Positions 14,851 to 28,933 of a DNA stretch of 47,326 nucleotides are shown here, piece after piece; position 1 is the stretch's first letter, and every line of letters starts with the position of its first letter. A program made the translations under genes and the position numbers. The notes beneath the pieces are model-generated. The model was not told the DNA's origin, ran no database searches, and saw only the letters and a list, made by a program, of their open reading frames with translations. Source of the DNA: Thermodesulfobacteriota bacterium (lineage in GTDB: Bacteria; Desulfobacterota; Desulfobacteria; Desulfobacterales; JAUWMJ01); assembly GCA_034189135.1 (NCBI GenBank), contig JAXHVO010000104.1:1-47326 (forward strand), in the 5' to 3' direction.

Positions 14851-14867
14851 TTGGCATGGCTATTGCT
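14851..14867 (+). promoter_or_regulatory. sigma-54 (-24/-12) promoter of the pilus operon
   Basis: TTGGCATGGCTATTGCT matches the RpoN consensus TGGCAYG-N4-TTGCT, with GG at -24 and GC at -12 exactly ten bases apart. Transcription would begin near 14878, leaving a leader of about 205 bases before the pilin. RpoN control of pilins is established in other bacteria. The rest of 14436-15081 is AT-rich non-coding sequence. Confidence 0.6.
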
Positions 14868-15081
14868 ATACCTTAAAAGGTCAATGCTGCGTTTGTTATA
14901 GCGGAATGGATATACTGTCCGCCATAGAATGAAATGGGGCTGAAAAAATCAATATATTGTGTTTAAAAATATTTAGGATACATGATGTTGTATTTTTTTC
15001 TTTACAAAACAATCATTATCTGATAACTAGACAAAGTTAAAATAGTTAAAAATTATAATCATTTCAAAAGGAAATAAAATA

Positions 15082-15738
15082 ATGATGAACAGCGGAAATA
15101 ATTCAGATCAGTTTGTGTTAAAAAACGATAAGGGATTTACCCTGATAGAAATGGCTATTGTGCTGATTATTATAGGAATAATTATCGGAGCAATCGTTAA
15201 GGGAAAGGATATCATACGCAGCGGCGAACAGAAAAAAATCTATTCCGTGTTTTTAAATGCATGGAGAACGTCTTATCTAAATTTTTATGACCGTACCGGA
15301 AAAATACTCGGGGATACCAATAACGACCGCCAGCCCGATACAAACCCGGCCCATCGTGGCAACCCGCCGTCAGACAGGGGGCGCGATACGCTGGTATCAG
15401 GAGATACGGCGCATAATCCACCTCATTACTACGGACTTGCACAGATCGGCCTTGAAGCGCCCAAGACCAATACCGAAAAAGCATGGAAATACCGATATTC
15501 AGACAGCACGGGCAAGGGGCATGAACTGGCCATTGCCTTCGATTATGATCGAAAGGGCAAATACAACTATATGCTGATTTCCAATATACCGAATGAACTG
15601 TGTATTGCCATGGACACCATGATAGATGGTGAGATGGACGGGGCAAAGGGAGATTTTACCGGTGACGGAACCAGGGGCAAAGCCTGGGGCACCACACCGT
15701 CTGATGCGACTGCGGCCCGTTGGAAAATGGATTTTTAA
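15082..15738 (+). CDS. type IV pilin-like protein (MSHA-type major pilin candidate)
   Basis: A prepilin of 218 residues. A 17-residue basic leader ends in G18, with the cleavage motif G|FTLIE (F19 becomes N-methylated; the glutamate at mature +5 is E23). A continuous hydrophobic helix (MAIVLIIIGIIIGAIV) then anchors and packs the subunit. The globular part is rich in Asp, Asn and Gly. It is the first gene after the sigma-54-like promoter and precedes all assembly genes, so it is the best candidate for the major subunit. AAAGGA lies about nine bases before ATG 15082 (ATG 15085 is an alternative). A palindromic element begins right after its stop and may separate its expression from the rest. 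Confidence 0.88.
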   Translation: MMNSGNNSDQFVLKNDKGFTLIEMAIVLIIIGIIIGAIVKGKDIIRSGEQKKIYSVFLNAWRTSYLNFYDRTGKILGDTNNDRQPDTNPAHRGNPPSDRGRDTLVSGDTAHNPPHYYGLAQIGLEAPKTNTEKAWKYRYSDSTGKGHELAIAFDYDRKGKYNYMLISNIPNELCIAMDTMIDGEMDGAKGDFTGDGTRGKAWGTTPSDATAARWKMDF

Positions 15739-15861
15739 TGGCGTGGTAAAAAATCACCCATACTGCGTTGGTGCGGTCTTTCGGCTGCTCGACATCCCAA
15801 CTGGGTGGTCTCGTTCCCAAAAAACCATATCGCTTTGTATATGAGATTTTTTGCTTGGCCA
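15739..15861. repeat. imperfect palindromic element between pilin and assembly genes
   Basis: The outer arms 15739-15755 and 15845-15861 pair at 13 of 17 positions, including an uninterrupted GATTTTTT/AAAAAATC block; weaker pairing continues inward. It begins directly after the pilin stop. It could reduce read-through into the assembly genes, or be a dispersed repeat that landed there. Confidence 0.45.
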
Positions 15862-15919
15862 TTCTGAGCTTTTTTAAAAACTTTTTACCAGCGTATCAAT
15901 CTATATAGGAGTAAATGCC

Positions 15920-16411
15920 ATAAAATTCTTCAGATCAAACACAACCACCGGAATCTTAGCTGTTTTATTTTTTATTGCCGTCATTTTTTCTTTTTTTGCA
16001 TATAACCGATATACGGTCGGCCGGGAAAAAGTAGACACATTGACCGTCAGGCTAAGGTTAATGGAAGAAGAAAAAATTAAGCTTGAGCAAAAAAAGCGCA
16101 TCCTTCACCGGGTAAAAAGATTTATTGATCAGGCAGACACACTGGGGCTTGAGAAAAGCAGGTGGGCGACCTATGAAGTCAATATTGCCCAGGGTATTGA
16201 CTTTATTGATATGGAACAGATTGTGAACCAGTGTGTAAACACCCAATCATACTATTTCAGGCCTGTTTCACTCCACATTAAAACCAACCATGTATCGGAT
16301 AATGACGAAATTTCCCGGAAAGCTGAAGTGAAACCGGATGAATCTTGGGAAGATCAACCGGGAGATGCCATTTTAACACTTAACGGCGCATTTGTGGTCA
16401 GGCATAAGTGA
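15920..16411 (+). CDS. MshJ/PilO-like membrane protein with ATA start codon
   Basis: A 163-residue bitopic protein. A short cytoplasmic stub (KFFRSNTTTG) is followed by a membrane helix (residues 11-27), a coiled-coil stretch (EEEKIKLEQKKRI) and a small periplasmic domain, the layout of PilO/MshJ alignment proteins. The reading frame is open from 15878 but has no ATG, GTG or TTG before the membrane helix. The ribosome binding site AGGAG (15907-15911) is ideally spaced from an ATA at 15920, where ATG AAA TTC would be expected. So either the start codon has mutated from ATG to ATA, or AUA is used, or there is a base error. A TTG at 16040 would remove the membrane helix. Its TGA overlaps the next ATG by one base. 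Confidence 0.68.
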   Translation: MKFFRSNTTTGILAVLFFIAVIFSFFAYNRYTVGREKVDTLTVRLRLMEEEKIKLEQKKRILHRVKRFIDQADTLGLEKSRWATYEVNIAQGIDFIDMEQIVNQCVNTQSYYFRPVSLHIKTNHVSDNDEISRKAEVKPDESWEDQPGDAILTLNGAFVVRHK

Positions 16412-17703
16412 TGATCAAAGCAAAAAAACAATATGCAATTGAGCTGGATGGATTGACCTACACTTTTTCCGGTGATCAGCTGTCCCAGGTGGTGGACCTG
16501 AAAGATATCAAAGGAGACACATGGCTAATCACCGATATGCAGGAAGCGATCTCTCGAACAATGACCGTTGATGCGGCGATAAGGTATGTAGATGTTATTG
16601 TTCGTAAAAAGCTTCAGGAGTTAGGGGAGTTTGATGATTCTGTTTCGGTTCTTTCCCACTGGAAGAAAAAAAAGGGGGCCAATACGACCGAGATATTTTT
16701 TACCGCCCTGCCTTCACGCCTGTTAAACCGCTATGTTGAACACAGTCGGGAACATGATGATAATATCATTATCTTTCCACTATACTCCGTTCTTTTTCAC
16801 GTTTTAAAACAGATTAAATCACCGCAACCGGTAGTGGTGGTGTTTCAGCACAACCGCTTTGCGGACCTAATTATAGGTACAGGTACAAAAGTTTATTATG
16901 CCAACCGCTGTGTGGCCTTTGACACCTCACCAGAACAGATTTCCAATCTCTGGGAAACGGTTAAGACAGATATAGATACGGTTGAAAGAGATCACCGGAT
17001 CAAGGCAGACAAGACTTTCCTGCTTACCTGGATCGACAGCGGTTCTCTACCTGAATGGTCTTCTGATACCCAAAGAGAAATTTATTCTTTTGAAAATGAG
17101 GCAATCACTTTCAATTCCGCAGTAAAAAATATTTCCTTTTTAACGGCTTTGAAATCTTTGTCCGGCCGGGAGAGTATTTCACCTCCCTGGGAAAAGGTGC
17201 TCTATTACACGAGAAGATTGTGCGGATATATCAATTTGCTCATTTTTATCGCAGCACTGGTGCTTGCCGGAGGGTATTTTTATTATAATCACCAGGCAGA
17301 TGTTCAGGCGGATATGGCAAAGAGGGTGGCTGCAAAGATCGATGGGATTCATTTTGATATACCAACCGGGGTTGAAGAGGAAAAACTTAAAGCCACGCTT
17401 GAGTTTGTAAAACAGCTTGATTCCTATAAAAAATCCCCTTCCTATAAAAGAGTCATTAACGATATTTCCGCCTCTATTTCCAGGAACATGAAATTTAATG
17501 TGGTCAAGCTTGATTATTCGGGCAGCGAACTCCTGCTGGAGATTTTCGGACGGGTAGAAGCACCTTTCAATATGGCCCATAAGGGGTACCGTGACTTTCT
17601 AACGTCTTTAAAAAAGAGAGGATATTCGGTTACTGAAAGCAGGTTTGATACTCAGATCAACAGCTCCGAATTTATGATAAAATTAAAAAAGAGGATCCAA
17701 TGA
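16411..17703 (+). CDS. MshI/GspL-like pilus assembly platform protein
   Basis: A 430-residue protein with a PilM/GspL-type cytoplasmic half (residues 1-265, weakly conserved actin-like fold), one membrane helix (273-292) and a periplasmic PilN-like domain to the C-terminus. In one chain it does what PilM plus PilN do as two proteins, as in MshI and GspL. It connects the assembly ATPase on the cytoplasmic side to the periplasmic alignment complex. The start ATG 16411 forms a TGATG overlap with the preceding gene; a GTG at 16408 is the alternative. The next gene overlaps by four bases. Confidence 0.72.
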   Translation: MIKAKKQYAIELDGLTYTFSGDQLSQVVDLKDIKGDTWLITDMQEAISRTMTVDAAIRYVDVIVRKKLQELGEFDDSVSVLSHWKKKKGANTTEIFFTALPSRLLNRYVEHSREHDDNIIIFPLYSVLFHVLKQIKSPQPVVVVFQHNRFADLIIGTGTKVYYANRCVAFDTSPEQISNLWETVKTDIDTVERDHRIKADKTFLLTWIDSGSLPEWSSDTQREIYSFENEAITFNSAVKNISFLTALKSLSGRESISPPWEKVLYYTRRLCGYINLLIFIAALVLAGGYFYYNHQADVQADMAKRVAAKIDGIHFDIPTGVEEEKLKATLEFVKQLDSYKKSPSYKRVINDISASISRNMKFNVVKLDYSGSELLLEIFGRVEAPFNMAHKGYRDFLTSLKKRGYSVTESRFDTQINSSEFMIKLKKRIQ

Positions 17704-18257
17704 AAAGGAAATACCAGGGACTGGTTACCCTAGGCATTTTTTTGCTGGTAGTGGTGGCCACCGCTGTTTATGCTCTGAGCGACTTTTGGAAAAGAGCTGA
17801 CAAGGTTTCCCTTCACCACATGAAGCCGATGCCGAACATTAACATTCCGCAACGCGCCACCTTAAGAGAAATCGATCGCCTGGGGAAAAATTTAAGAAGC
17901 ATTGCTTATCCTGGCGGACCCCAGGCAGCACCTGTGGATCTCATCCTGTTCGGCTATCAATCCATTCAAGCAGCCGGACAAAGATCTGAGCCTGCATCAT
18001 ACGGAAGACAAATCACCCTGCCGGTGGAGATGAACTATTCTCTTACATTTGCCTTTTCTTCCAATACAGAACGATTTTGTTTGGTGAATAACATATTTTG
18101 CGGCGAAGGAGATCGCCTTAAAGATGGTGGGCGCATATTAAAAATAGAGCCCGGCCGGGTATTAATCGAAAAACGGGGATTTAAAAAATGGGTATTTCCT
18201 GATGAAGATAAAATAAGAACAAAAGCTGAGAAAAAGGTGTTAGTGGAGGACAAATGA
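17700..18257 (+). CDS. MshK/PilP-like inner-membrane protein
   Basis: A 185-residue bitopic protein with a membrane helix at residues 7-26 and a periplasmic domain. The C-terminal part (FSSNTERFCLVNNIFCGEGD, then the KIEPGRVLIEKRG stretch) resembles the small beta domain of GspC, PilP and MshK proteins, which contacts the secretin N-domain. It contains two cysteines there. It overlaps the gene before (ATGA at 17700-17703) and the secretin after it, so it is translationally coupled to both. Assignment rests on topology and gene order more than on sequence identity. Confidence 0.65.
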   Translation: MKRKYQGLVTLGIFLLVVVATAVYALSDFWKRADKVSLHHMKPMPNINIPQRATLREIDRLGKNLRSIAYPGGPQAAPVDLILFGYQSIQAAGQRSEPASYGRQITLPVEMNYSLTFAFSSNTERFCLVNNIFCGEGDRLKDGGRILKIEPGRVLIEKRGFKKWVFPDEDKIRTKAEKKVLVEDK

Positions 18258-19783
18258 AAAGCTGTAACAATATATTTTCTATAATGTCTATTTTTTTTCT
18301 TGCCGGTCTTTTTCTCGCCGGATGTTCCCTCGGGCCGTCCAGTGTCCTGGAACCCAAGGAGCCTCCCATCGTTCCGGTTCCGGAAAAAGTTCAGGAAGAA
18401 TCAGCCAAACTGGATGAAATCCAAAGAAAGCTACATGACTCGATTGAAAAAACTGCTCCGAAACAAGTTGACATAAAACCGGTGATGCCGGCCTACGACC
18501 CTCTTGAAGATCGTATGGTTTCCTTTTCCATGATTAATGAGGATCTTCGCTTGATTCTCTATTCTTTGTCCAGGGCAGTGGGTATGAACCTGATTATTAA
18601 TCCGGAAGTCACTGTGGAGGAGAAGCGACTGACGATCAATTTTGAAAAAGTTTCCGCTTCAACGGTCTTAAAAGAGATTTTAAATTCATTTGATCTTTAC
18701 TACGAAGTTGACGGAAATGTGATACGGGTAAATCCGTATCAGGAGAAAATGTTCAAGTTGAATTTTCTCGATACCTATATGGATACCGATTTTATTGTTG
18801 GGGGCGATGTTTTAGGGGCCGGGGAACAGGACGGTGTGGAAGGGCTTAGCGGAACATTTAAGCTCACCGGTAAAGGAGCTGAGAAAGGAAAGGGGAACCC
18901 TTATGACGTGATAGAGGATATGGTCAGGCGCACGATTTCACAGGGTGGAAAATACTCCATCAACCGGATTTCAGGAAGCCTTTATGTGAAGGATACACCG
19001 GCCACCATTCACATGATATCAAGGGTGATCAACCATGCCAAAGAGATGCTTTCCAGGCAGATACTTATTGAGGCAAGAATTATAGAGGTCATTCTTTCAG
19101 ACGAGTACAAATACGGCATTGACTGGAGTGTGGTCCGAGAGGAAGTAGATTCAAAGGAAAAACGGGTGACCGGCACCTCATGGGTTTCAGAAATTGGATT
19201 GGCGCTTCAGGGAATCTATCGGCATTTTAATATTGACGTGACCATAGATGCGCTAAACGGTTTCGGCGATATGAAGGTGGTTTCCAATCCGACCATCCGG
19301 GCCAAACATGGGCAACCTGCCATTATCAGCGTGGGGACATCCATAAGCTATACCAAAAGTACGGAAACCACCACCACCGGTACCGGTGACAACAGCGATA
19401 CCACTACGGAAGTTGAGGTTTCCAAGGTCTTTGACGGGCTTATACTGGGAGTGATTCCTTTTATTGACGAAGAGGGAAAAATATCCCTCATGATAAATCC
19501 CATAAAAAGTGATGTGGATCGGGAAAGTCTTGAACTGATCAGCATCGGGAATCAGAAGATCACTTTGCCTGAAGTCAGGGTAAAGGAGATCAATACAACC
19601 ATTTCACTCGACAGCGGCGACGTGGTGATTTTAGGGGGCCTGATTGATAAAAACCTTACCACGGACAATAAGGGCGTACCGATTCTTTCAGCCATTCCCG
19701 GCCTGGGATATCTTTTTAAAAATGAGTTCAAAAGCGAACAAAGCAGGGAATTGGTCATAATATTGAGCGTGTCACTCATATGA
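18254..19783 (+). CDS. mshL: outer-membrane secretin of the MSHA-type pilus
   Basis: A 509-residue lipoprotein secretin forming the outer-membrane pore for the pilus. The signal peptide ends in lipobox LAGC, with the lipidated cysteine at C24. Residues about 90-160 form the STN/N0-type domain (NEDLRLILYSLSRAVGMNLI). The C-terminal secretin domain runs from about 320 to the end, with the family's closing block SGDVVILGGLIDKN and IPGLGYLFKNE. A threonine-rich insert (TETTTTGTGDNSDTTTE) lies in the gate region. It overlaps both neighbours by four bases. The gene symbol follows the MSHA family. Confidence 0.9.
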   Translation: MKSCNNIFSIMSIFFLAGLFLAGCSLGPSSVLEPKEPPIVPVPEKVQEESAKLDEIQRKLHDSIEKTAPKQVDIKPVMPAYDPLEDRMVSFSMINEDLRLILYSLSRAVGMNLIINPEVTVEEKRLTINFEKVSASTVLKEILNSFDLYYEVDGNVIRVNPYQEKMFKLNFLDTYMDTDFIVGGDVLGAGEQDGVEGLSGTFKLTGKGAEKGKGNPYDVIEDMVRRTISQGGKYSINRISGSLYVKDTPATIHMISRVINHAKEMLSRQILIEARIIEVILSDEYKYGIDWSVVREEVDSKEKRVTGTSWVSEIGLALQGIYRHFNIDVTIDALNGFGDMKVVSNPTIRAKHGQPAIISVGTSISYTKSTETTTTGTGDNSDTTTEVEVSKVFDGLILGVIPFIDEEGKISLMINPIKSDVDRESLELISIGNQKITLPEVRVKEINTTISLDSGDVVILGGLIDKNLTTDNKGVPILSAIPGLGYLFKNEFKSEQSRELVIILSVSLI

Positions 19784-20736
19784 GCGTTATTTATAAAACA
19801 TTAAAAAAGCTGAAAACCGAATCAGCAGAAGAATCAGAAAATAATGGGATAGCAGAAAAAAGGAAGAGAAGTTATTCTTTTAAAGGGGTATCTTTCAATC
19901 CGGTGATTGCCATTTCCCTTGTACTTTTGATTTTAATTGCAGCGGGTGGCGTTTTCTTTGCTACGCGCGGCCCAAAGAAAACCGGTAAGCATCCGTCCCA
20001 GGCGAAAGTTTTTAAAATTCAACAAAGCTCAGAATACCAACAAGATGATGTAAGCGCTGAAGGAGAGGGAAAAGAATCGGTTAATATTGGCTATATACCT
20101 GCCCAGACAGAAAGTAAGGATTCGGAGAATACCGCCGGAAAAGATACCCTCGCTCAGGACACATCGCTGCAAGGAGATATGAAGCTTCCACAAATTGCAG
20201 CGCGCAGAACGGTGGAGAATCAGCCGGAAAAAGGAAATAATTTTGCTCAACCACAGCCAGCCGTTTTTTCTTCTCCTCAAAAGGGAACGTTTTCTCCCCA
20301 AAGGGATGAAGAAAAAAAACACCAAGAAAAAATTCGCCGGCAAAGAATTCATCGAACCAATCTTGAAAGAAGCCTAAAAATAAGCAGGCTGGTTGACCGG
20401 ATACATAAACACATCAAAGCCGGGAATATCTCTCTGACGGAAAAATATCTGACTGAGCTGGAAACACTGAAAGGCAAAGACAGCACTTATGTGCTAAAGA
20501 TGAGGGCATTCTGGGCTCTTAACCGGCAGGATTATACATCGGCAACGGGTTTTCTTAAAACGGCCCTGGATAAAAACGAAAAAGATGTCGAAGCCGGGAT
20601 TAATATGGCCATTGTAGAAATAAAGACCAAACAATTTCTGAAGGCGGAAAACCGGTTGAAAAAGCTCAGGAAAATCTATCCGGAAAACACGGCTATCTCC
20701 GAATTAGTTGAAACGCTAAAGCTAAGGTCTCGTTAA
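19780..20736 (+). CDS. mshN: MshN-like TPR protein
   Basis: A 318-residue inner-membrane protein. It opens with SVIYKTLKKLK, the short motif shared with GspB/MshN proteins. A membrane helix follows (41-61), then a long charged, glutamine- and proline-rich linker in the periplasm, and helical TPR-like repeats at about 215-315 (NGIS-type ALNRQDYTSATGFLKTAL). It probably scaffolds the secretin or the peptidoglycan link. ATG 19780 overlaps the secretin stop (ATGA). The gene symbol rests on order (after mshL) and layout. Confidence 0.7.
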   Translation: MSVIYKTLKKLKTESAEESENNGIAEKRKRSYSFKGVSFNPVIAISLVLLILIAAGGVFFATRGPKKTGKHPSQAKVFKIQQSSEYQQDDVSAEGEGKESVNIGYIPAQTESKDSENTAGKDTLAQDTSLQGDMKLPQIAARRTVENQPEKGNNFAQPQPAVFSSPQKGTFSPQRDEEKKHQEKIRRQRIHRTNLERSLKISRLVDRIHKHIKAGNISLTEKYLTELETLKGKDSTYVLKMRAFWALNRQDYTSATGFLKTALDKNEKDVEAGINMAIVEIKTKQFLKAENRLKKLRKIYPENTAISELVETLKLRSR

Positions 20737-20855
20737 GTGGTATGTTGGCTTCAAATTGCGTTTTCCCGGCGGCAGCTTGACCAGCCGTGGGGGCAAAAAG
20801 GCCCAATGCCGGCTTAACCACCCAGCTATCTCTTATATAAAAGAGGTTTTCGATT

Positions 20856-22406
20856 ATGAAAACATCAGCCGCATATGAAGAATTGAGTTATCTTGATTTT
20901 TTAGGACTGGACTATAATCCGTTTCCGGTGGCTCCTGATGACGAAAATTTTTATTTTTCAGAGCATATTTACGAGATTCTTTCGGAAATTGTTCACGGGA
21001 TTATTTCGCGTAAAGGATTTATGGTGATCACCGGTGATGTCGGACTGGGAAAAACCACCATCAGTCGCAGGATCTTAAGTATTCTGGAAGAAAAAGGGAT
21101 TGAAACCTCACTCTGTTTTCATACTTCATACCAGGATGTGGAACTGCTAAGGGAAATAAATCGGGATTTCGGCATTGAAAGTACAAGTCTTCTTTTCAGC
21201 GAGCAGATGATGCTGTTAAATGATTTCCTGCTGGCGCAAAACCGGGAAGGAAAAAATTGTGCCATCATTATTGACGATGCGCAGAATCTTAATCACCAGA
21301 GTCTTGAACTCGTTAGAATGATTTCAAACCTTGAGGCAAATCAGCAGAAACTGGTTCAGATTCTACTGGTCGGTCAAGCGGAATTGATGGACAAGCTAAA
21401 TTCAACAGAGCTGAGACAACTTAAAAGCAGGATCATTATCAAAAAAGAAGTCCGACCCCTGAAACTTGAAGAACTGGAAAAATATCTTTTATTTAAGCTG
21501 AACGTTTCCGGAGGTGGCGGGCTTACCAAAATAAGAAAAAATGCGCTTTTAAAAATACAAAAATATACCGGGGGAAACTTTAGGCAGATCAATATTTTAA
21601 TGGATAGATGCCTGTATGTTGCCTTCCTTAATAATACGGCTGAAATCAGCGGACAGATTATTAAAGATGCCTACCTCGATTTGAATCCTGATCGCAGATC
21701 CGGATTTGCCAAAAAGATAACCGTTTTACCGGTGGCCATATTATTACCACTGGTTCTGTTGGCAGGATTGATATTCTTCACCCAGGCCGAGACGCCATTG
21801 CTGCACAAAACAAGTATCATGGGGAAAACGGAGGTGTCGGCAAAAGAGCTTAAAAGTTTGCCCGGGGTTGCCAATGCCGGGGAAGTGCCGGTGCAACCTC
21901 ACCCAGGGGAAAAAGATAAAAAGAGCGCAAGTGTTCCGGTACCGGTGGATGATTTTTTAAAGGCCTATCAACTTTCGGTGCATAAGAATACGTTTTTTAA
22001 CGCCCTGGAAACGGGCAGATTTCAGCAAGTTGCTCAAACCATATTCAACCAGACAGGATATCAGCTCATCCGACTGGAACATATTTTTGACCGGGTAAAA
22101 AGAAAATACGGAGTATTGTCTTACCCGAACACTGTAAACGGAAAGCCAGGTTATTTTCTTTTCTGGAAACCGGCCTTTACGCTGAAAAAGTTTTACTATT
22201 CATATCGCGGGGAAGAAATTAAAAAGCTTCAAGCAGAAATGGCGAAGGTTAAACTGTATAACTATCATCTGGATGGCATTGTGGGGAAAAAACTGATGAA
22301 TGCGGTCATTCATTTTCAGCAACAGAATGCCCTTCCGGTGACGGGTTATCCTGACAAGAGGACCATATTCCTTTTATGCCACAGGGAGGGGACAAACCAG
22401 GCATGA
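20856..22406 (+). CDS. mshM: MshM/ExeA-like AAA ATPase with peptidoglycan-binding domain
   Basis: A 516-residue ATPase of the ExeA/GspA type. Walker A is GDVGLGKT (60-67) and Walker B is CAIIIDDAQ (135-143). A membrane helix spans about 289-308. The C-terminal periplasmic part ends in a peptidoglycan-binding repeat (about 456-507, LDGIVGKKLMNAVIHFQQQN). These proteins couple cytoplasmic ATP hydrolysis to inserting the secretin through the cell wall. It lies 120 bases after mshN and overlaps mshE by four bases. Confidence 0.87.
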   Translation: MKTSAAYEELSYLDFLGLDYNPFPVAPDDENFYFSEHIYEILSEIVHGIISRKGFMVITGDVGLGKTTISRRILSILEEKGIETSLCFHTSYQDVELLREINRDFGIESTSLLFSEQMMLLNDFLLAQNREGKNCAIIIDDAQNLNHQSLELVRMISNLEANQQKLVQILLVGQAELMDKLNSTELRQLKSRIIIKKEVRPLKLEELEKYLLFKLNVSGGGGLTKIRKNALLKIQKYTGGNFRQINILMDRCLYVAFLNNTAEISGQIIKDAYLDLNPDRRSGFAKKITVLPVAILLPLVLLAGLIFFTQAETPLLHKTSIMGKTEVSAKELKSLPGVANAGEVPVQPHPGEKDKKSASVPVPVDDFLKAYQLSVHKNTFFNALETGRFQQVAQTIFNQTGYQLIRLEHIFDRVKRKYGVLSYPNTVNGKPGYFLFWKPAFTLKKFYYSYRGEEIKKLQAEMAKVKLYNYHLDGIVGKKLMNAVIHFQQQNALPVTGYPDKRTIFLLCHREGTNQA

Positions 22407-24064
22407 CCACAGAAAAACCGAAAAAGCAGCTGGGTGAAATCTTAAAAGAAAAGGGGATTATTACCGAGGATCATATCAATTATGCCCTTCAGATTCAAAG
22501 GATCACCAAAGACCGGCTGGGGGAAATTTTTGAGAAACTTGGTTTTGTTACCGAAAACGACACAGTTAAAACCCTGGCTGAACAGATCAGCATTTCATAT
22601 GTTGATGTTGATGAGGTTTTACCCGACAACACGGTGTTGAAATTGTTTAACAAAAATCTCTGTCTTAACAACACCTTTCTACCGATGCGGCAGGTGGACG
22701 GTACCATTGAAGTTGCTGCATACAACGCACGGGATGTCAAGCTCGGACAGTTAATTTCAAGGCAGACCGGACTGAAACCGAAGTTTTATATTTCAGAACG
22801 ATCTAAGATTATCAATGCGGTGAACAAGCTTTATTATTTTCTGGAAAACCCCGTGGAGAAATTAATCGAAAACGAGATTAATGTCCTTGTCAGAGATAAA
22901 GAGATGGCAAGGGGTATGGACAACCTGATCAACCATATCTTTCATCTGGGGATTAAAATGCGGGCAACCGACATTCATATTCAGTCCATGAAACAGTCTC
23001 TGGACGTTTCATTCAGGATAGACGGAGTTAAAAATCCCGTAATATCCCTTCCGATTGCCCTAAACAGGGTGATTGCCAGCCTTAAAATGAAGGCGGATAT
23101 GGATATCGCCGAACAGCGACTTCCCCAGGATGGCCGTTTTTCCGCCACTATTTTAAACAACACCTATGATTTCAGGGTATCCACCATCGTTTCTCCACAG
23201 GGAGAAAACATGGTTTTAAGAATCCTGCCCATGGAAAGCGCCGTGATGGGGATGGAACAGCTGGGTTTTTTAAAAGAACATGTCAAAATTGTGGAAAATA
23301 TGTTCAAAGAGCCTTTTGGCATAGTGCTTCTCACCGGACCCACCGGCAGCGGAAAATCGACCACCCTTTATGCCGGGATAAGAAGACTGAACCTGCTGGA
23401 AAAAAATGTAATCACCGTTGAGGAACCCATCGAATATGATATCCCCTTGCTTCGACAAACACAGGTAAATGAAAAGGCCGGTTACACTTTTGCCAGCGCC
23501 ATCCGTTATTTTTTAAGACACGACCCGGATGTCATACTGGTCGGGGAAATAAGGGATGTGGAGACGGCTTCAACAGCGGTGACCGCATCTACCACCGGGC
23601 ACATGGTCCTTTCAACACTGCATACCAACAGCGCCATAGGCGCAATTTCCCGGCTGAAAGATCTGGGCGTTCGTCCTTTTTTGATTGCCGATTCCCTGGT
23701 AGGCGTGCTTAGTCAACGACTGGTGAGAAAGGTTTGCAATGCCTGCAAAGAGCCCTATCATCCGCAGGAATGGGAAAAGGAATATTTAAACGATCCGAAC
23801 ATTGAAACGCTTTACCGGGGAAAAGGATGCGAAGTCTGTAACAACTCCGGATATTTCGGGCGTACCCTGGTCTATGAAATCCTTACCGTCAATCGAGAGC
23901 TTTCCACGCTTATTGAAAAGGAGGCAGATCCGAGCATGATTTCACAAAGAGCGGCTTCAAGCGGACATATTAACATGCTGGATATCATGACTGAAAAAGT
24001 AAAGCAGGGAATTACCACTTATGAAGAGGCGGTGCGTATACTTGGGATTATCAGACAACAGTGA
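22403..24064 (+). CDS. mshE: type IV pilus assembly ATPase (GspE/PilB/MshE family)
   Basis: A 553-residue hexameric ATPase that powers pilus extension. The N-terminus carries two copies of the MshEN-type segment: residues 9-32 starting QLGEIL, and 38-61 starting RLGEIF, each with the conserved G. In MshE this repeat binds c-di-GMP. The first copy has Q where R is usual. Walker A is GPTGSGKST (312-320), Asp box VEEPIEY (339-345), Walker B ILVGEIRD (378-385) and His box GHMVLSTLHTN. A zinc tetracysteine follows at C445, C448, C476 and C479. The start ATG 22403 overlaps the mshM stop (ATGA); the frame also extends nine codons upstream inside mshM. Confidence 0.94.
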   Translation: MTTEKPKKQLGEILKEKGIITEDHINYALQIQRITKDRLGEIFEKLGFVTENDTVKTLAEQISISYVDVDEVLPDNTVLKLFNKNLCLNNTFLPMRQVDGTIEVAAYNARDVKLGQLISRQTGLKPKFYISERSKIINAVNKLYYFLENPVEKLIENEINVLVRDKEMARGMDNLINHIFHLGIKMRATDIHIQSMKQSLDVSFRIDGVKNPVISLPIALNRVIASLKMKADMDIAEQRLPQDGRFSATILNNTYDFRVSTIVSPQGENMVLRILPMESAVMGMEQLGFLKEHVKIVENMFKEPFGIVLLTGPTGSGKSTTLYAGIRRLNLLEKNVITVEEPIEYDIPLLRQTQVNEKAGYTFASAIRYFLRHDPDVILVGEIRDVETASTAVTASTTGHMVLSTLHTNSAIGAISRLKDLGVRPFLIADSLVGVLSQRLVRKVCNACKEPYHPQEWEKEYLNDPNIETLYRGKGCEVCNNSGYFGRTLVYEILTVNRELSTLIEKEADPSMISQRAASSGHINMLDIMTEKVKQGITTYEEAVRILGIIRQQ

Positions 24065-24090
24065 AAAAGGGAAAGGCAACGAAAAAATAA

Positions 24091-24129
24091 ACATCGAACA
24101 TCGAACGTCCAACATCGAATGTTGAATGG
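24091..24129. repeat. degenerate ACATCGAAC tandem repeat
   Basis: About four imperfect units of 9-10 bases (ACATCGAAC, ATCGAACGTCC, AACATCGAA, TGTTGAATG) in the only sizeable gap in the second half of the operon, between mshE and mshG. A small AACAT-cga-ATGTT hairpin is included. Confidence 0.55.
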
Positions 24130-24175
24130 AAAGGGGTTCGTTGTTTATTAACCTTGAACAATCACAAATTACAAA

Positions 24176-25408
24176 ATGAACTATTTTAGATATAAACTGA
24201 TTGCCCCTTCCGGAGAGCTTTTTTCAGGTACGACCAAGCTTCCATATGAAGATCTCCTATCGGCTATTTCCCACCTGGAAAGGGATGGCAGCCTGACCCT
24301 GTATGTGAAGAAATTGGGAATTTTGCGTTCCTTCATTACCAAGCTCGGCTCTTTTCAGTTTCGTAAAAAAATAAAAAGATCGGCGCAGGCGGAACTATTG
24401 AGCAACCTTTCACTCATGCTTCGATCCGGCATCACCCTGACCGCTGCACTGGAAGAGATAGCAGACAGTCTGCAACACTCTGAAATAAAAAATGATTTAA
24501 AGAATATTATTTTAAGTGTTCAGGCAGGCACCCCTTTTTCAGAGGCGGCAGAAAAGTACAGTTATATTTTCCCCACTGCTGTTATCCATCTCATAAAAAT
24601 TGGTGAGGAGACCGGCAAACTCGATGAAATGCTCGAAAGTGGGGCACAGCACCTAAAGAGGGTGCAAGGTATTGTCAGTGACACCAAACAGGCCCTCATG
24701 TATCCGGCGGTTGTGTTTGTGGTATTGGGAGCCGGTTTTATTTTCTGGGTATATTATGTGGCACCCAAGATTATTGACCTTTTCAGGGATATGGAAGTTG
24801 AGCTTCCTGCAATTACCGTTTTTGTAATGAAGGTTTCCTATTTCTTCAGGGATTACCTGGTTCATATACTGATTGTGGTACTGCTCATGATTTTCAGCGT
24901 TTTAGCTATCTATAAAGGGAGCAGATGGGTAAAAAGAGGTATCGACGCGATGATTTTAAAACTTCCGGTTGCCGGAACCATTATCTCCGCCTCTTCCCTG
25001 GCTTTTATAAGTGAATACTTTTCTTTATTAATGAATGCCGGTGTGGATTTACTTCACTCCATGACGATTTTAAAAAAATCGATTGCCAATGAAATCTATC
25101 GTGAAAAATTAGATGAGATAAGAAAAAGCCTGAAAAGGGGAGAGAGCATTACCGATTCATTTAGAGGCGGGGTTATTTTTCCCTCCTATGTGATTCGGAT
25201 GATAAACATTGGCGAGATGAGTGGAACCCTTTCAGAGCAGCTTGCTTCTGTGGCCGGGGAATACCGAAAAAAGCTTTCAACCCTGGTGGCAGTGATAGGG
25301 AAAATGCTTGAGCCGGTCATACTGGTGATCGCAGGTGTTTTGTTTGGGGTGATTATCGTGGGGCTTTTGCTCCCGATTTATGACCTGGTAAGCCAGGTGA
25401 GCGGATGA
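24176..25408 (+). CDS. mshG: pilus inner-membrane platform protein (GspF/PilC/MshG family)
   Basis: A 410-residue polytopic platform protein on which the pilus is built. It has two T2SSF domains. The first begins with AELLSNLSLMLRSGITLTAA (residues 76-95), the second at about residue 280 (FISEYFSLLMNAGVDLLHS). Three membrane helices are seen at about 178-200, 225-247 and 375-400, the last in ILVIAGVLFGVIIVGLLLPI. It is the last gene of the operon and converges on the LamG prepilin gene, 93 bases stop to stop. Confidence 0.92.
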   Translation: MNYFRYKLIAPSGELFSGTTKLPYEDLLSAISHLERDGSLTLYVKKLGILRSFITKLGSFQFRKKIKRSAQAELLSNLSLMLRSGITLTAALEEIADSLQHSEIKNDLKNIILSVQAGTPFSEAAEKYSYIFPTAVIHLIKIGEETGKLDEMLESGAQHLKRVQGIVSDTKQALMYPAVVFVVLGAGFIFWVYYVAPKIIDLFRDMEVELPAITVFVMKVSYFFRDYLVHILIVVLLMIFSVLAIYKGSRWVKRGIDAMILKLPVAGTIISASSLAFISEYFSLLMNAGVDLLHSMTILKKSIANEIYREKLDEIRKSLKRGESITDSFRGGVIFPSYVIRMINIGEMSGTLSEQLASVAGEYRKKLSTLVAVIGKMLEPVILVIAGVLFGVIIVGLLLPIYDLVSQVSG

Positions 25409-25501
25409 ATTAGTAAAACGACTAAAAGCTATTTATTCAGCATTCAAAACGCTAACGTGTTAACAACAATCAACCATCGCCAATAATCGATCTTCTATTG
25501 T

Positions 25502-28357
25502 CTACCGGGTAATATTATAATCCTGCACGATCTCACTACCTGAAAGTCCCCGGTCGTATATTCTTAATTCATCCATGAGCCCGTCGAAACTGTAACTGGT
25601 ATTATTCAGCCAGCTGCTGATTCTTAAATTGGAACCGACTGATCTATTGGTGTTCTGGGTTCCCTGGAGCAGGCTGATGGATTGCTGCACGCCGTCGATA
25701 TAGAGAACATTATGGGCCGGATCCCGGTTGGTAAAGACTGCCGCCACATGGTGCCAGTTGTTGGCCAGGGTGGCGGTTGCGTTGCTGATACCAAACACAT
25801 CCCCACCGCCGGTGTTAAAACCGAAACGGTTGCTGGTGAGCCACAGATCGTAAGTTTGCCAGCCCAACGGCATGTTAGAGTTGCTGCCGGTCCAGTTCAT
25901 CCAGAAAGTCACCGTGGTTCGGTCTCCGATTGCAGTGGATACCGGCAGACCAGAAATATCGATGCGCCCCCGGTTTGCCCTGACAAATTCGCCACAGTTG
26001 TAAAATCTACCGTTTGTATTGATATTTATCCCACCAGCAGCGCTCTCCTGAGGTGTCCCGTGGTGATTATTTCCCGATGCATCAAGCACATCGGGGTTCC
26101 CGATGGTCCAGGAGGATTCATCCATGTAATATATGGCCACCGGATTGGTATAACAGCTGCCGGAACAGGCATGAGTCATGGTGTAGAGATCCTGAATTTC
26201 GCTTTGGGTCAGTTCAGCTGAAAAGACCATGACTTCATCAATATAGCCATTAAAGTAGTTGTTTACATGTTGAGAACTGCCAATGGTAAACAGGCTACCT
26301 GCGGCGTTATCCAGGTCGCCGCCGCCACTCCAGGTGGTTGCATTTTGATAGCGGTTGCTGTTAATGGTGACAGTCACCAGACCGTTGTTGTAGGTCACCG
26401 CGATGAAGGTCCAAAGATTAAGGGGAATGCTTCCGATGGTGGCCAAATCCGTATACGTATCCCTTCCCTGTGTATCAATATAGAGATGTAAGGTCCCGTT
26501 TGTATTGACTCCGATTTCAAGATTGTCATTATGGGCATCCGAAGCTTTTGCCAAAAAGCAGTTTTGGGTATGATGGTTGGTTTGAGCAGCGGTTAAGGCC
26601 AAAGGAAAAATCCACGTGGTTACGGTAAATTCGTTGTTGCCCGGACCAAAAATATTATTAAGAATATCTCCCATATCCACGTAATTTGTACTGTCAAAAG
26701 ATCCGCTTCGGCAGATTTTGCCGATATCTATCGTATCAGCACCACCCTGTGCGGTGCCATCCAAAGCACTGGTGCCGGAATCGATGACCTCCCCGGCTGT
26801 ACCATTCCAGCTGCATTCATCCATATGCCATTCGGCTGAAAGCGAGATGGTGTATGGCGCGACTGCTCCTGCGGAAGTGACATCCACACTGAGGGTAATG
26901 TCTGCGGTGTTACCCGGACACAGTGCGTCGGTGGCAGTCAGGATAAAGGTATATAAGCCTGCGGTGGTTGCACCGTCTTTTCTTATTTCGCAGGTTTCAC
27001 TTCCGGTTGAAGCCACCGAAAAGCCGGTGGCTCCTCCGGTATTAAGATTCCAGGTAATGTTCCCCAGATGATCGCCGTTTGCCTGAAAAGACTCATGCTG
27101 GGTCGGGCTGTCCCAGGTAATGGATGTCCCGCTGCCGCTGGTGCGTGATACATTCAGATTTGTATTAACCTGAAGAGTGAACTGCTTGGTGTCGGTTTTA
27201 GGACCCCCATCGGAAGGAAGGGTTGAATCTTCAACCTGTACCTCGATGGTGTAGGTCCCTTCACACTGATCCAGGTCTCCTGAAAGCTGACCGGTGTAAG
27301 TATGAAGAAAAAGACCGGAAAAGCCTCCGTTGTTGGTCAACGTCCATTCATATGGTGTCATACCGCCGGTCGCCTGGAAGGTGGCGGAGTAACTGCTGTT
27401 GATGGTGCCGGCAGGAATCGAGCTGGTGGTAATGGTCACATTCTCACCGCCTGCGGCGCACCCGGCCACACCGTAACAATCCTGGTCATCACAGTCGATA
27501 TAACCGTCACCGTCATCATCCGTTCCGTTGGTGCATCCGTCCGGAAAGGTGTTTTCTCCTGCCGTGGTGCCGCCGGGACCTCCGGTATCTCCCACCGAGC
27601 AGCCGACGGCACCTGCGATATAGCTTAATGATGCCGCACGCACAAGGTCGTCATACCGTTTGCCGGTGGGATCGCCGTGAAATATGCCGCGGTCCGGCAA
27701 ATCAAACTTGAGATCACGTCCCTCATTATTACCGTCAAAAAGGCCGTCCGCTCCGTCTCCATCAAGATCTTTATTGCCGCCGCTTACCAGGATATAGGCC
27801 TTGTTATTCGGGTCCCGGCCGTTTTCGTCGGTGGTATAGAGTTTGGAGGTATCAGGAGGATGATTGTCATCCTGTGGATCATAGTAGTTAATAATATTTT
27901 CCACCCCGGTGCAAAATGAGTTGCCCCCTGTGGGTGTGGAAAAAGTGATCAGATCACTGTACACCCCGTATTTGATCGGGTTTCCCCAGATATCGTTCGG
28001 CGTAGAAAGACCCAGGGTCAGATATGGCAAATGACCGACATAGGCAGCGCAGGTGTCATCGGCCGGGTTGCCCTGGGTACCTCCGTCATTGCGGTTTTCC
28101 TCACCATCCGCGTTGGTATCGGGGCACGGGCATCTACCCGTTGCCGAGATATATCCCTGTATGGCAAGGTCGGCCCGTTTAAGATCGGCCTGTGCCTGCT
28201 TAATTTTTCCGGAATGAATGAGAGAGGGCAAAACGGTGGCCATAATCGAAATAATGATTCCGACAATCACCATGACCACTGCCATTTCAATTAGGGTGAA
28301 TCCTGCTCGATGGGTTAATTTTGAAAATGACAATTTAGGTAAAATGATATCCTTCAC
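25502..28357 (-). CDS. giant LamG-domain prepilin, probable pilus-tip adhesin
   Basis: A 951-residue prepilin, four to five times the size of an ordinary pilin. Leader with cleavage motif G19|FTLIE (+5 glutamate E24), then the hydrophobic helix MAVVMVIVGIIISIMATVL. The pilin-like part has a Cys pair (CPCPDTNADGE, about 76-86). Calcium-type loops follow (DLDGDGADG near 197, DDDGDGYIDCDD near 280-291). Two Ig-like/cadherin-like segments span about 305-400 and 405-495. Two LamG/concanavalin-like domains lie at about 508-725 and 742-948, each opening with a MDE.SW motif. It starts at GTG 28357 (AAAGG upstream), faces the pilus operon, and has its own promoter region. Binding a glycan or surface at the tip is inferred. 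Confidence 0.88.
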   Translation of the reverse strand: MKDIILPKLSFSKLTHRAGFTLIEMAVVMVIVGIIISIMATVLPSLIHSGKIKQAQADLKRADLAIQGYISATGRCPCPDTNADGEENRNDGGTQGNPADDTCAAYVGHLPYLTLGLSTPNDIWGNPIKYGVYSDLITFSTPTGGNSFCTGVENIINYYDPQDDNHPPDTSKLYTTDENGRDPNNKAYILVSGGNKDLDGDGADGLFDGNNEGRDLKFDLPDRGIFHGDPTGKRYDDLVRAASLSYIAGAVGCSVGDTGGPGGTTAGENTFPDGCTNGTDDDGDGYIDCDDQDCYGVAGCAAGGENVTITTSSIPAGTINSSYSATFQATGGMTPYEWTLTNNGGFSGLFLHTYTGQLSGDLDQCEGTYTIEVQVEDSTLPSDGGPKTDTKQFTLQVNTNLNVSRTSGSGTSITWDSPTQHESFQANGDHLGNITWNLNTGGATGFSVASTGSETCEIRKDGATTAGLYTFILTATDALCPGNTADITLSVDVTSAGAVAPYTISLSAEWHMDECSWNGTAGEVIDSGTSALDGTAQGGADTIDIGKICRSGSFDSTNYVDMGDILNNIFGPGNNEFTVTTWIFPLALTAAQTNHHTQNCFLAKASDAHNDNLEIGVNTNGTLHLYIDTQGRDTYTDLATIGSIPLNLWTFIAVTYNNGLVTVTINSNRYQNATTWSGGGDLDNAAGSLFTIGSSQHVNNYFNGYIDEVMVFSAELTQSEIQDLYTMTHACSGSCYTNPVAIYYMDESSWTIGNPDVLDASGNNHHGTPQESAAGGININTNGRFYNCGEFVRANRGRIDISGLPVSTAIGDRTTVTFWMNWTGSNSNMPLGWQTYDLWLTSNRFGFNTGGGDVFGISNATATLANNWHHVAAVFTNRDPAHNVLYIDGVQQSISLLQGTQNTNRSVGSNLRISSWLNNTSYSFDGLMDELRIYDRGLSGSEIVQDYNITR

Positions 28358-28503
28358 AGATTTACCTTTAATGGGTATGTTCCAACTGCAATTGGAATCA
28401 GTGAGATAAAATATCTAAAAACCTAGTGTATTTTATATAAAAATAACATAAATGTCAATGAAAACCAGAAAAATAGGGTTTTTATAAGAGGGAATTGAAA
28501 AGG

Positions 28504-28866
28504 TCAGGAGGGGGTTTTGTTTTTTCGGGAGTGGTAAGCTTTTACAAATTTCTTTATAATTTGAACGTTTTCATCTAGTGTGCCAAGAAAGCTGATGCCG
28601 GTTTCATATTTACCGGAGTTACCCTTTTTTGTATGGGCAACTTTTCCTTTTATTTCCATGATATTATTTTCCAGGTCAATAGACATGAGCAAAATAAATT
28701 CTGATTCAATGGGAGATACTGATTTTAGGAGGATTCCACCCTGGCTGATATTTAAAGTTTCGCCCATTCCTTCGCCGATTTCATTGCCCTTTTTATCCAC
28801 GCAAACATAAGAAACCACATTGCGTGTTTTTACCCTCGGGTATTTTCTTTTATCTGTTTTCGGCAT
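28504..28866 (-). CDS. PilZ-domain protein
   Basis: A single PilZ domain of about 120 residues, a c-di-GMP receptor fold. The N-terminal RxxxR motif is RKYPR, and NISQGG matches the second ligand-binding motif (D/N-x-S-x-x-G). ATG 28866 is chosen because the domain starts right after it; an upstream TTG would add seven residues. It lies 146 bases upstream of the LamG prepilin on the same strand, so the two may be co-transcribed. With the MshEN-like ATPase this suggests c-di-GMP input to the pilus. Confidence 0.87.
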   Translation of the reverse strand: MPKTDKRKYPRVKTRNVVSYVCVDKKGNEIGEGMGETLNISQGGILLKSVSPIESEFILLMSIDLENNIMEIKGKVAHTKKGNSGKYETGISFLGTLDENVQIIKKFVKAYHSRKNKTPS

Positions 28867-28933
28867 ATTCCTATTTTCTGCCTGCAATGGGCAGGCATCT
28901 TATCACAGTTATGAAATTCAGCTATGCGTGCAG

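Follow-up and report, generated by a model that had tools for sequence, protein, structure and literature searches.

What kind of filament can be built from an operon with a single small pilin gene and one very large prepilin gene facing it? This question is raised by a locus of a Thermodesulfobacteriota bacterium (assembly GCA_034189135.1, contig JAXHVO010000104.1). The window analysed here is the whole of this contig (C104; 47,326 nucleotides), and the genome is of 4.63 Mb in 140 contigs and 95.5% complete. A plus-strand operon from 15082 to 25408 carries p218, mshJ-, mshI- and mshK-like genes, mshL, mshN, mshM, mshE and mshG; opposite to it lies the gene of a modular prepilin of 951 residues, called the giant below. 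On balance, the locus probably encodes an adhesive, MSHA-like filament of two pilins whose head can be exchanged. It might further represent a class of type IV filament not described so far, found among relatives of sulfate-reducing Desulfobacterota and built from two local prepilins, one of them a socket pilin whose glycan-binding heads were swapped between the LamG and propeller types several times at this locus; this broader proposal is tentative, and we put its chances a little below even.

The giant gene (25502–28357; this and all its parts are on the minus strand) is convergent with mshG and lies 94 bases past it. The make-up of the protein was read from Pfam, from family alignments A1, A4 and A5, and from an AlphaFold2 model. 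Pfam gave N_methyl at 26.1 bits (cut-off 21.2), He_PIG at 25 bits (cut-off 24) and two Laminin_G_3 (PF13385) stretches (111.6 bits); with the methylation motif, and with two PF13385 domains and He_PIG over cut-off, the giant bears the marks of a modular type IV pilin. The class III signal with its N-terminal methylation motif is at 28241–28312 (PF07963, 31.3 bits). The pilin module, at about residues 17–250 (27608–28309), has a long helix at residues 22–73 in the model, shows a weak match to the GspG profile, and is common to the headless pilins of about 300 residues seen in the survey described below. An acidic, cysteine-bearing linker connects this module to two immunoglobulin (Ig)-like stalk domains at about residues 303–499 (26861–27451). 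He_PIG covers residues 308–397, and the block means of the model are 71–94 over residues 301–500; the second Ig-like stretch, ahead of the LamG pair, is suggested by the alignment and the model. The head consists of LamG domain 1 (26192–26692; PF13385, 76.7 bits) and LamG domain 2 (25529–25927; PF13385, 60.6 bits), and no further PF13385 match was found in this genome at E ≤ 0.001. Both Pfam and the open reading frames (ORFs) agree with the initial annotation, which had described an operon with one pilin and a mshJ-I-K-L-N-M-E-G-like set, opposed by a 951-residue prepilin with two C-terminal LamG domains; the Ig-like domains are an addition to it.

The nearest solved fold of LamG domain 1, as modelled for the window, is domain 4 of the arabinanase AbnA (Z 22, 25–26% identity). 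This relation was also found by sequence (E 5e-6), and the structure of the AbnA domain was solved with an arabino-oligosaccharide. The likeness is only a lead, by which the LamG pair might bind sugar. Clostridial neurotoxin binding domains match via the general ConA-like fold; the Z value of AbnA is higher and nothing suggests a toxin, so a neurotoxin-like reading was rejected. TafC was also rejected as a name for the giant (NF052521, 45 bits, far under the cut-off of 410), and a literature search found no paper on TafC as a pilus protein.

Is the giant part of the same system as the operon? Scanning named genomes gave 18 loci, seven of which (L031–L037; three cut by contig ends) encode the giant type, all in metagenome-assembled genomes titled Deltaproteobacteria, Desulfobacterales or Desulfobacteraceae. 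The other 11 match mainly in LamG, L048 over 30 residues. The giant adjoins mshG in five of the seven, which is every case with a flank long enough. A survey of 291 genomes drawn from the order scored the giant by alignment A4 (its first 300 residues) at E below 1e-60 and MshI by alignment A2 at E below 1e-6, with at most 6–9 candidates per genome. The giant was found in 21 genomes, MshI in 20 and both in 18 (Fisher p 1.2e-23, a guide only, as kinship is ignored). In a survey of 395 genomes of the phylum, which overlaps the order sample in G000 and some order members, the giant was found with the same cut-off in three genomes and MshI in the same three. The co-occurrence claimed initially was thus borne out, and a distribution with LamG prepilins mostly lacking an MSHA-type operon was not what the survey gave.

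The position of the giant was then compared in 27 distinct genomes, with G001/G176, G002/G101 and G003/G264 merged since their contig numbers and places coincide. It stands beside mshG in 18 of them: within 0.65 kb in 16, at 1.3 kb in G047 and at 5.2 kb in G096, with ORFs in between in the latter two. Fourteen of these giants are convergent with mshG and four are collinear, and this adjacency in both orientations argues for a functional tie of the giant and the operon. In G020, the giant adjoins p218, at the opposite end of the operon. The G672 giant is spread over two contigs, one with the LamG end next to mshG and one with the carrier, and these probably belong to a single gene; in G002, G005, G053 and G142 the contig ends too soon to place the giant relative to the operon. 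The giants range from 719 to 1656 residues, some being cut by contig ends. These data support the view that the giant belongs with the operon, and they show that the pairing in relatives is real.

The next point is whether two pilins make up the filament. Only two ORFs of the window, p218 and the giant, pass the prepilin pattern. The p218 gene (15082–15738, plus strand; N_methyl, 32.4 bits) has counterparts in the equivalent position of other loci, and its product is probably the main pilin subunit. The profile of the p218 family has weak matches to several solved pilins, and the one to MshA (9lab) spans only 21 residues around the N-terminal helix (E 0.0018). Where PF07963 covered a contig bearing a complete operon (G001, G004 and G006), it finds exactly two prepilins, those of the p218 and giant families. 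A looser pattern, which missed a few known prepilins, was applied to 16 stretches from relatives that contain msh genes or giants and gave no third prepilin in any of them. In the genome of the window, PF07963 gives 16 matches at E ≤ 0.1, 15 of them above cut-off, and only p218 and the giant are on C104. The others include loci with one prepilin (C46, C122) as well as sets of three to five (C21, C81 and C115), and many of them sit in other filament-type loci: the C21 set is near a 2171-residue PilY1, the C81 set is in a type II secretion system (T2SS)-like locus as judged from ORF reading and not from a profile scan, and C115 holds a second secretin/ExeA/GspE-type locus.

These prepilins on other contigs, seen likewise in seven of seven related genomes, are the basis of the best surviving alternative, in which p218 is not the major pilin, the operon borrows its major and tip-complex pilins, and both local prepilins are minor. 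The HIJK sets of minor pilins are described as exchangeable between one filament and another (PMC9934059), which fits such borrowing. However, the whole-operon contigs show exactly the two families, the corresponding headless pair stands together in 12 of 13 genomes of the second tier described below, and the C21 and C81 pilins, near PilY1 and in the T2SS-like locus, probably have their own machines. We regard borrowing as unlikely, though as a serious competitor to the two-pilin filament.

Matches to the prepilin peptidase family PF01478 are on C134 and C31 only, none being in the locus. C98 carries tandem T2SSE-family ATPases of 365 and 397 residues, which by size and order seem to be a PilT/PilU-like pair. 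The initial annotation had found neither a peptidase nor a retraction ATPase at the locus; the matches on other contigs suggest that the missing functions are probably served from elsewhere. Absence of a local prepilin peptidase is the rule in MSH loci (PMC6668835), and retraction of the MSHA pilus of Vibrio cholerae depends on PilT (PMC7096442, PMC9815625).

All giants have the carrier, that is, the pilin module and the Ig stalk, in common, and the C-terminal head varies. The initial annotation had described this prepilin by its LamG domains; 18 of the 27 genomes have a LamG head, eight have a predicted propeller-type head instead, and the remaining one is broken. LamG heads have two to four domains where complete; the label of G005 comes from a cut end (E 3e-12). 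The second head type consists of a repeat of about 50 residues with no clear Pfam family. In the AlphaFold2 model of one of the eight, the L163 giant, seven four-stranded blades (counted by eye) occupy residues 489–846, mostly with a predicted local distance difference test (pLDDT) score above 90; block values are 80 or more over residues 461–848. In this model, the seven-bladed propeller fold is firm. By Foldseek, the Photorhabdus PLL/PHL lectins are the top matches (E 3e-13), and lectin function of this head is a weak lead. As separate observations on giants, L032 has two tandem LamG giants, both with a prepilin signal (L032:4263-9333), and MshI was not found in that genome; a 1570-residue prepilin of L036 (L036:9992-14704) has four LamG domains and repeated Ig stretches, apparently by fused duplication of stalk plus head; and in G096, two similar-looking ORFs of about 555 residues separate the propeller giant from mshG (L157:4715-9310).

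Were the heads exchanged? In a quick tree of concatenated MshI, L, M, E and G (26 rows, 20 of them with a head label), the label needs four changes (shuffled mean 6.0), at least two of them under well-supported branches. A more careful tree was made from the carriers, cut at a common point ahead of the head (23 rows); here the label needs five changes (shuffled mean 6.8), or 4–5 in the bootstraps. The window, with its LamG head, is sister to the propeller genome G142 in the core tree (SH-aLRT 99) and pairs with it again in the carrier tree (87/82), but this pair has to be read with caution, G142 being 72% complete with its giant on a separate 4-kb contig. A single propeller clade was rejected in the carrier tree by the approximately unbiased test (p 0.0076), for a group that had been picked after the earlier trees were known. 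Since neither tree separates the head types, the heads have probably been exchanged more than once; this is supported by the trees, not beyond doubt. In the family-level group f29, the giant encoded between eno and mshG has a four-LamG head in G222 and a propeller in G232, G209 and G096; these variants on one carrier are matched natural sets.

Relatives of the carrier without a head were found as second-tier A4 matches (E 1e-18 to 1e-30, frames of 291–412 residues) in 13 of the 291 genomes. In 12 of them, a p218-like prepilin match is on the same contig at a distance of 1 kb or less. Of the eight such loci that were read, seven have the gene of the short pilin in convergent orientation to an mshG-like gene, as in the window; in the eighth, G187, the contig starts too near. 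In a quick MshE tree (36 rows, with long branches), the window clade (16 rows, support 100) joins two headless systems of the phylum sample (99) and then eight rows of the second-tier type (86). Taken together, the headless pair in related loci and this tree suggest that p218 plus the short pilin looks older, and that stalk and head were grafted later.

The following model would account for these features. Of its elements, the genes present, the prepilin signals, the domains, the co-occurrence and adjacency, the conserved carrier and its differing heads are observed, and the choice of major pilin, the tip position, sugar binding, surface display and retraction are inferred. The two local prepilins would be cut by a peptidase encoded elsewhere, with p218 as the likely main filament subunit. 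The giant would be a low-copy modular pilin whose pilin module docks in the filament, probably at or near its tip, so that the Ig–Ig stalk displays the LamG pair outside the cell, where it would most likely bind a glycan on a surface or a partner cell. Extension would be driven by the MshE-like ATPase of the locus, acting by way of MshG and the secretin MshL, and retraction, if any, by PilT-type motors from another locus. The head would be an exchangeable cassette: relatives keep the carrier and the locus with a propeller in place of LamG, and distant loci are headless. If this is true, attachment or partner specificity could change without altering the pilus machine, in organisms that are mostly uncultured. 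Four conserved minor pilins are widely associated with the assembly of filaments, and the tip adhesin of type IVa pili (T4aP) of diderms is a separate protein (PMC9934059). If the locus works as its genes suggest, two pilins may suffice, with the adhesin as part of one of them.

Several observations weigh against this model. Some concern the pairing: the giant is present without an MshI match in G061, G101 and G275, the last having other msh genes beside a broken giant; G036 has an apparently whole operon with MshI and no giant; and the giant lies away from the operon in four of the 27 genomes (G061, G223, G250 and G268). In addition, G148 has MshI without a giant, on a broken 6.3-kb fragment. 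Others concern the number of pilins: all eight genomes searched with PF07963 (that of the window and seven others, with 9–16 matches each) have prepilins elsewhere, just what the initial annotation had named as counter-evidence, and among the headless loci, L170 and L171 have a third prepilin in the stretch while L172 and L174 have two or three p218-like ones. The pilin module of the giant is poorly modelled, with low confidence outside the helix at residues 22–73. As to the heads, CylK, YncE and WD40 propellers match that of L163 as well as the lectins do by VIA-align Z (28–32), and the starred branches of the carrier tree force one change only. Finally, mshJ of the window has no clear start codon.

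In comparison with MSHA systems, the label "MSHA-type" given initially is only partly right. The locus likewise combines MshI/J/K/L/N/M/E/G-type genes in one place without a peptidase gene, and mshE, mshG and mshM, which together with mshL and mshA are the mandatory set of the MSH model (PMC6668835), are present by fitting domains, with 25–35% identity by tblastn to genes of Paraglaciecola L038 and Glaciecola L042 and L046. Its secretin passes the MshL cut-off, but the MshE tree does not join the window clade to gammaproteobacterial MshE, whose own place on that tree is unsettled. The order here is L-N-M-E-G, with N before M as the initial annotation said, versus L-M-N-E-G in L038 (N there by position), and L038 has five flagged prepilins versus two at the window locus. 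LamG is tied to the locus in both lineages. Among the LamG matches that were read, those of L038, L042 and L046 are in proteins of 1634–1810 residues in the mshQ position, each of which combines LamG with DUF6701 and lacks an N_methyl match; the same combination is seen in a Colwellia protein (L043) whose gene is not part of a recognisable msh locus. MshQ is termed a putative MSHA adhesin (PMC7096442). DUF6701 was found in none of 22 genomes of the window's order (positive controls, three of three). Thus, LamG is on MshQ in Gammaproteobacteria and fused to a pilin here: the same domain type has a different carrier in each lineage. As to the earlier idea that a single large minor pilin replaces the usual set, the LamG head is best equated with MshQ, which is not a pilin, rather than with those minor pilins.

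Pelobacter carbinolicus is placed near the window's lineage. Its Msh pilus, likened to ours by description only, is likewise a reported Msh-type IVa pilus outside Gammaproteobacteria but has one major and five minor pilins, and the description does not mention LamG or a modular head (PMC3543383). The modular pilins PilB and PilC of Streptococcus sanguinis resemble the giant in having a class III signal and a pilin module with a grafted functional domain (PMC8179133, PMC9934059), and PilC has Ig-like and ConA-like lectin modules and binds glycans (PMC9934059). In a survey of 264 modular-pilin architectures, the 15 commonest include PF13385 and PF05345 as added domains (PMC8179133, PMC9934059). 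The giant differs from these pilins in its larger size, in its diderm MSHA-like machine, and in that relatives have different heads on the same carrier in the same position. The T4aP protein PilY1 is also a large tip adhesin with modular ends, its common part being a β-propeller (PMC8179133). However, it is not a pilin and is a separate gene in this genome; the giants scanned gave no T4P_PilY1 match at the thresholds used. Likewise, the Photorhabdus seven-bladed lectins resemble the propeller head (Z 28.7–31.4) at only 9–15% identity, a likeness known here from the fold and not from sugar sites. By title and abstract, and for the terms searched, the open-licence literature gave no description of the locus or of an exchangeable-head pilin. 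A paper on sulfate reducers names type IV pili and PilY1, with no mention of Msh, laminin or lectin (PMC10553843).

The machine itself has to be judged from the remaining plus-strand genes, whose names, except for MshL, come from domains, order and similarity to relatives' loci and not from a passed family model. The mshI-like gene (16408–17703), the survey marker (alignment A2), has no Pfam family match at E 0.01. The mshK-like gene (17700–18257), conserved in position, has weak T2SSB/GspB-type similarity (PF16537, 20 bits, below the cut-off of 28.4). They are followed by the mshL secretin (18254–19783; Pfam Secretin; NCBIfam TIGR02519, 270.3 bits, cut-off 250.2), an mshN-like gene with a tetratricopeptide repeat (19780–20736; TPR_19, 28.3 bits, cut-off 25), an mshM-like ExeA-type ATPase with a peptidoglycan-binding domain (20856–22406; AAA_22, 74.8 bits; PG_binding_1, 42.8 bits), the mshE-like extension ATPase (22376–24064; T2SSE, 388.7 bits; MshEN, 46.1 bits), and the mshG-like inner-membrane platform (24176–25408; T2SSF, 149.9 bits). 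The Pfam matches from mshL to mshG, like N_methyl of p218, all exceed their cut-offs. Could this be a secretion-type pseudopilus, which keeps the giant periplasmic or pushes it out as a piston head in place of a surface pilus? MshE matches GspE (454.8 bits) and MshG matches GspF (246.1 bits), both below cut-off, and the T2SSB and GspG matches of MshK and of the giant's pilin module point the same way. The secretin, however, passes the MshL cut-off and is far below that of GspD, a T2SS-like locus is already present on C81, and heads of a sugar-binding type fit display. We consider a pseudopilus quite improbable.

Still less probable is that the giant is the tip pilin of the C21 T4aP, tied to the MSHA-like operon by neighbourhood only. 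The genome does have T4aP-type minor pilins and PilT-like ATPases elsewhere, and the giants off the operon in four genomes would suit this idea. Yet co-occurrence with MshI persists without adjacency in three of the four (G223, G250 and G268, though not G061), T4aP are found in most bacterial phyla (PMC6668835), unlike the giant, and C21 already has its large PilY1. The least probable alternative is a locus in decay, without function in this genome, as the unusual start of mshJ and broken copies in G220, G275 and G148 might suggest; apart from mshJ, the genes of the operon, like that of the giant, are long open frames that match relatives end to end.

The mshJ-like gene (15923–16411, plus strand), for an inner-membrane assembly protein, has 29–42% identity to the same-position genes of L031, L034, L036 and L037. 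Its frame is open from 15878 with no ATG, GTG or TTG until 16040; likeness to the relatives starts at about 15923, and there is no such in-frame codon at their start point. The start codon or the sequence quality is uncertain here (15878–16060).

MshE has an MshEN-type cyclic di-GMP (c-di-GMP) motif (22427–22585, plus strand; NF053729, 55.9 bits, NCBIfam cut-off 38). The arginine of the first half of this motif matters; each of the ten clade sequences compared has Gln, Pro or Phe there, and L038 has Arg. A PilZ gene (28504–28887; PF07238, 35 bits) is upstream of the giant on the same, minus strand. It had initially been counted as part of the feature and was dropped as a component of the system: phmmer found no relative beside the giant at the other loci examined, where flanks are often short, and matches were confined to the window's own contig. 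The gene may still be a lineage-specific c-di-GMP link.

A few other observations were made in the neighbourhood and in the genome. Many relatives have a conserved protein of about 165 residues, of no assigned family, between mshN and mshM (L034:9182-9679, L036:4848-5345 and others); this gene is absent in the window and in L031, and its identification as MshF was unsupported (profile comparison probability 0.2%). The C21 PilY1 (L051:6210-12725), near T4aP-type prepilins, has four Calx-beta and three MopE-type metal-binding stretches. The C115 locus holds a 1109-residue prepilin (L049:13928-17257), possibly another modular pilin of this genome, whose MAM-type match stays below threshold (24.3 bits, cut-off 26.9). 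In L152 (G220:C4), the msh operon is fragmented into numerous short frames and mshL is interrupted by a gap of about 3.3 kb; p218, mshI and the giant are open.

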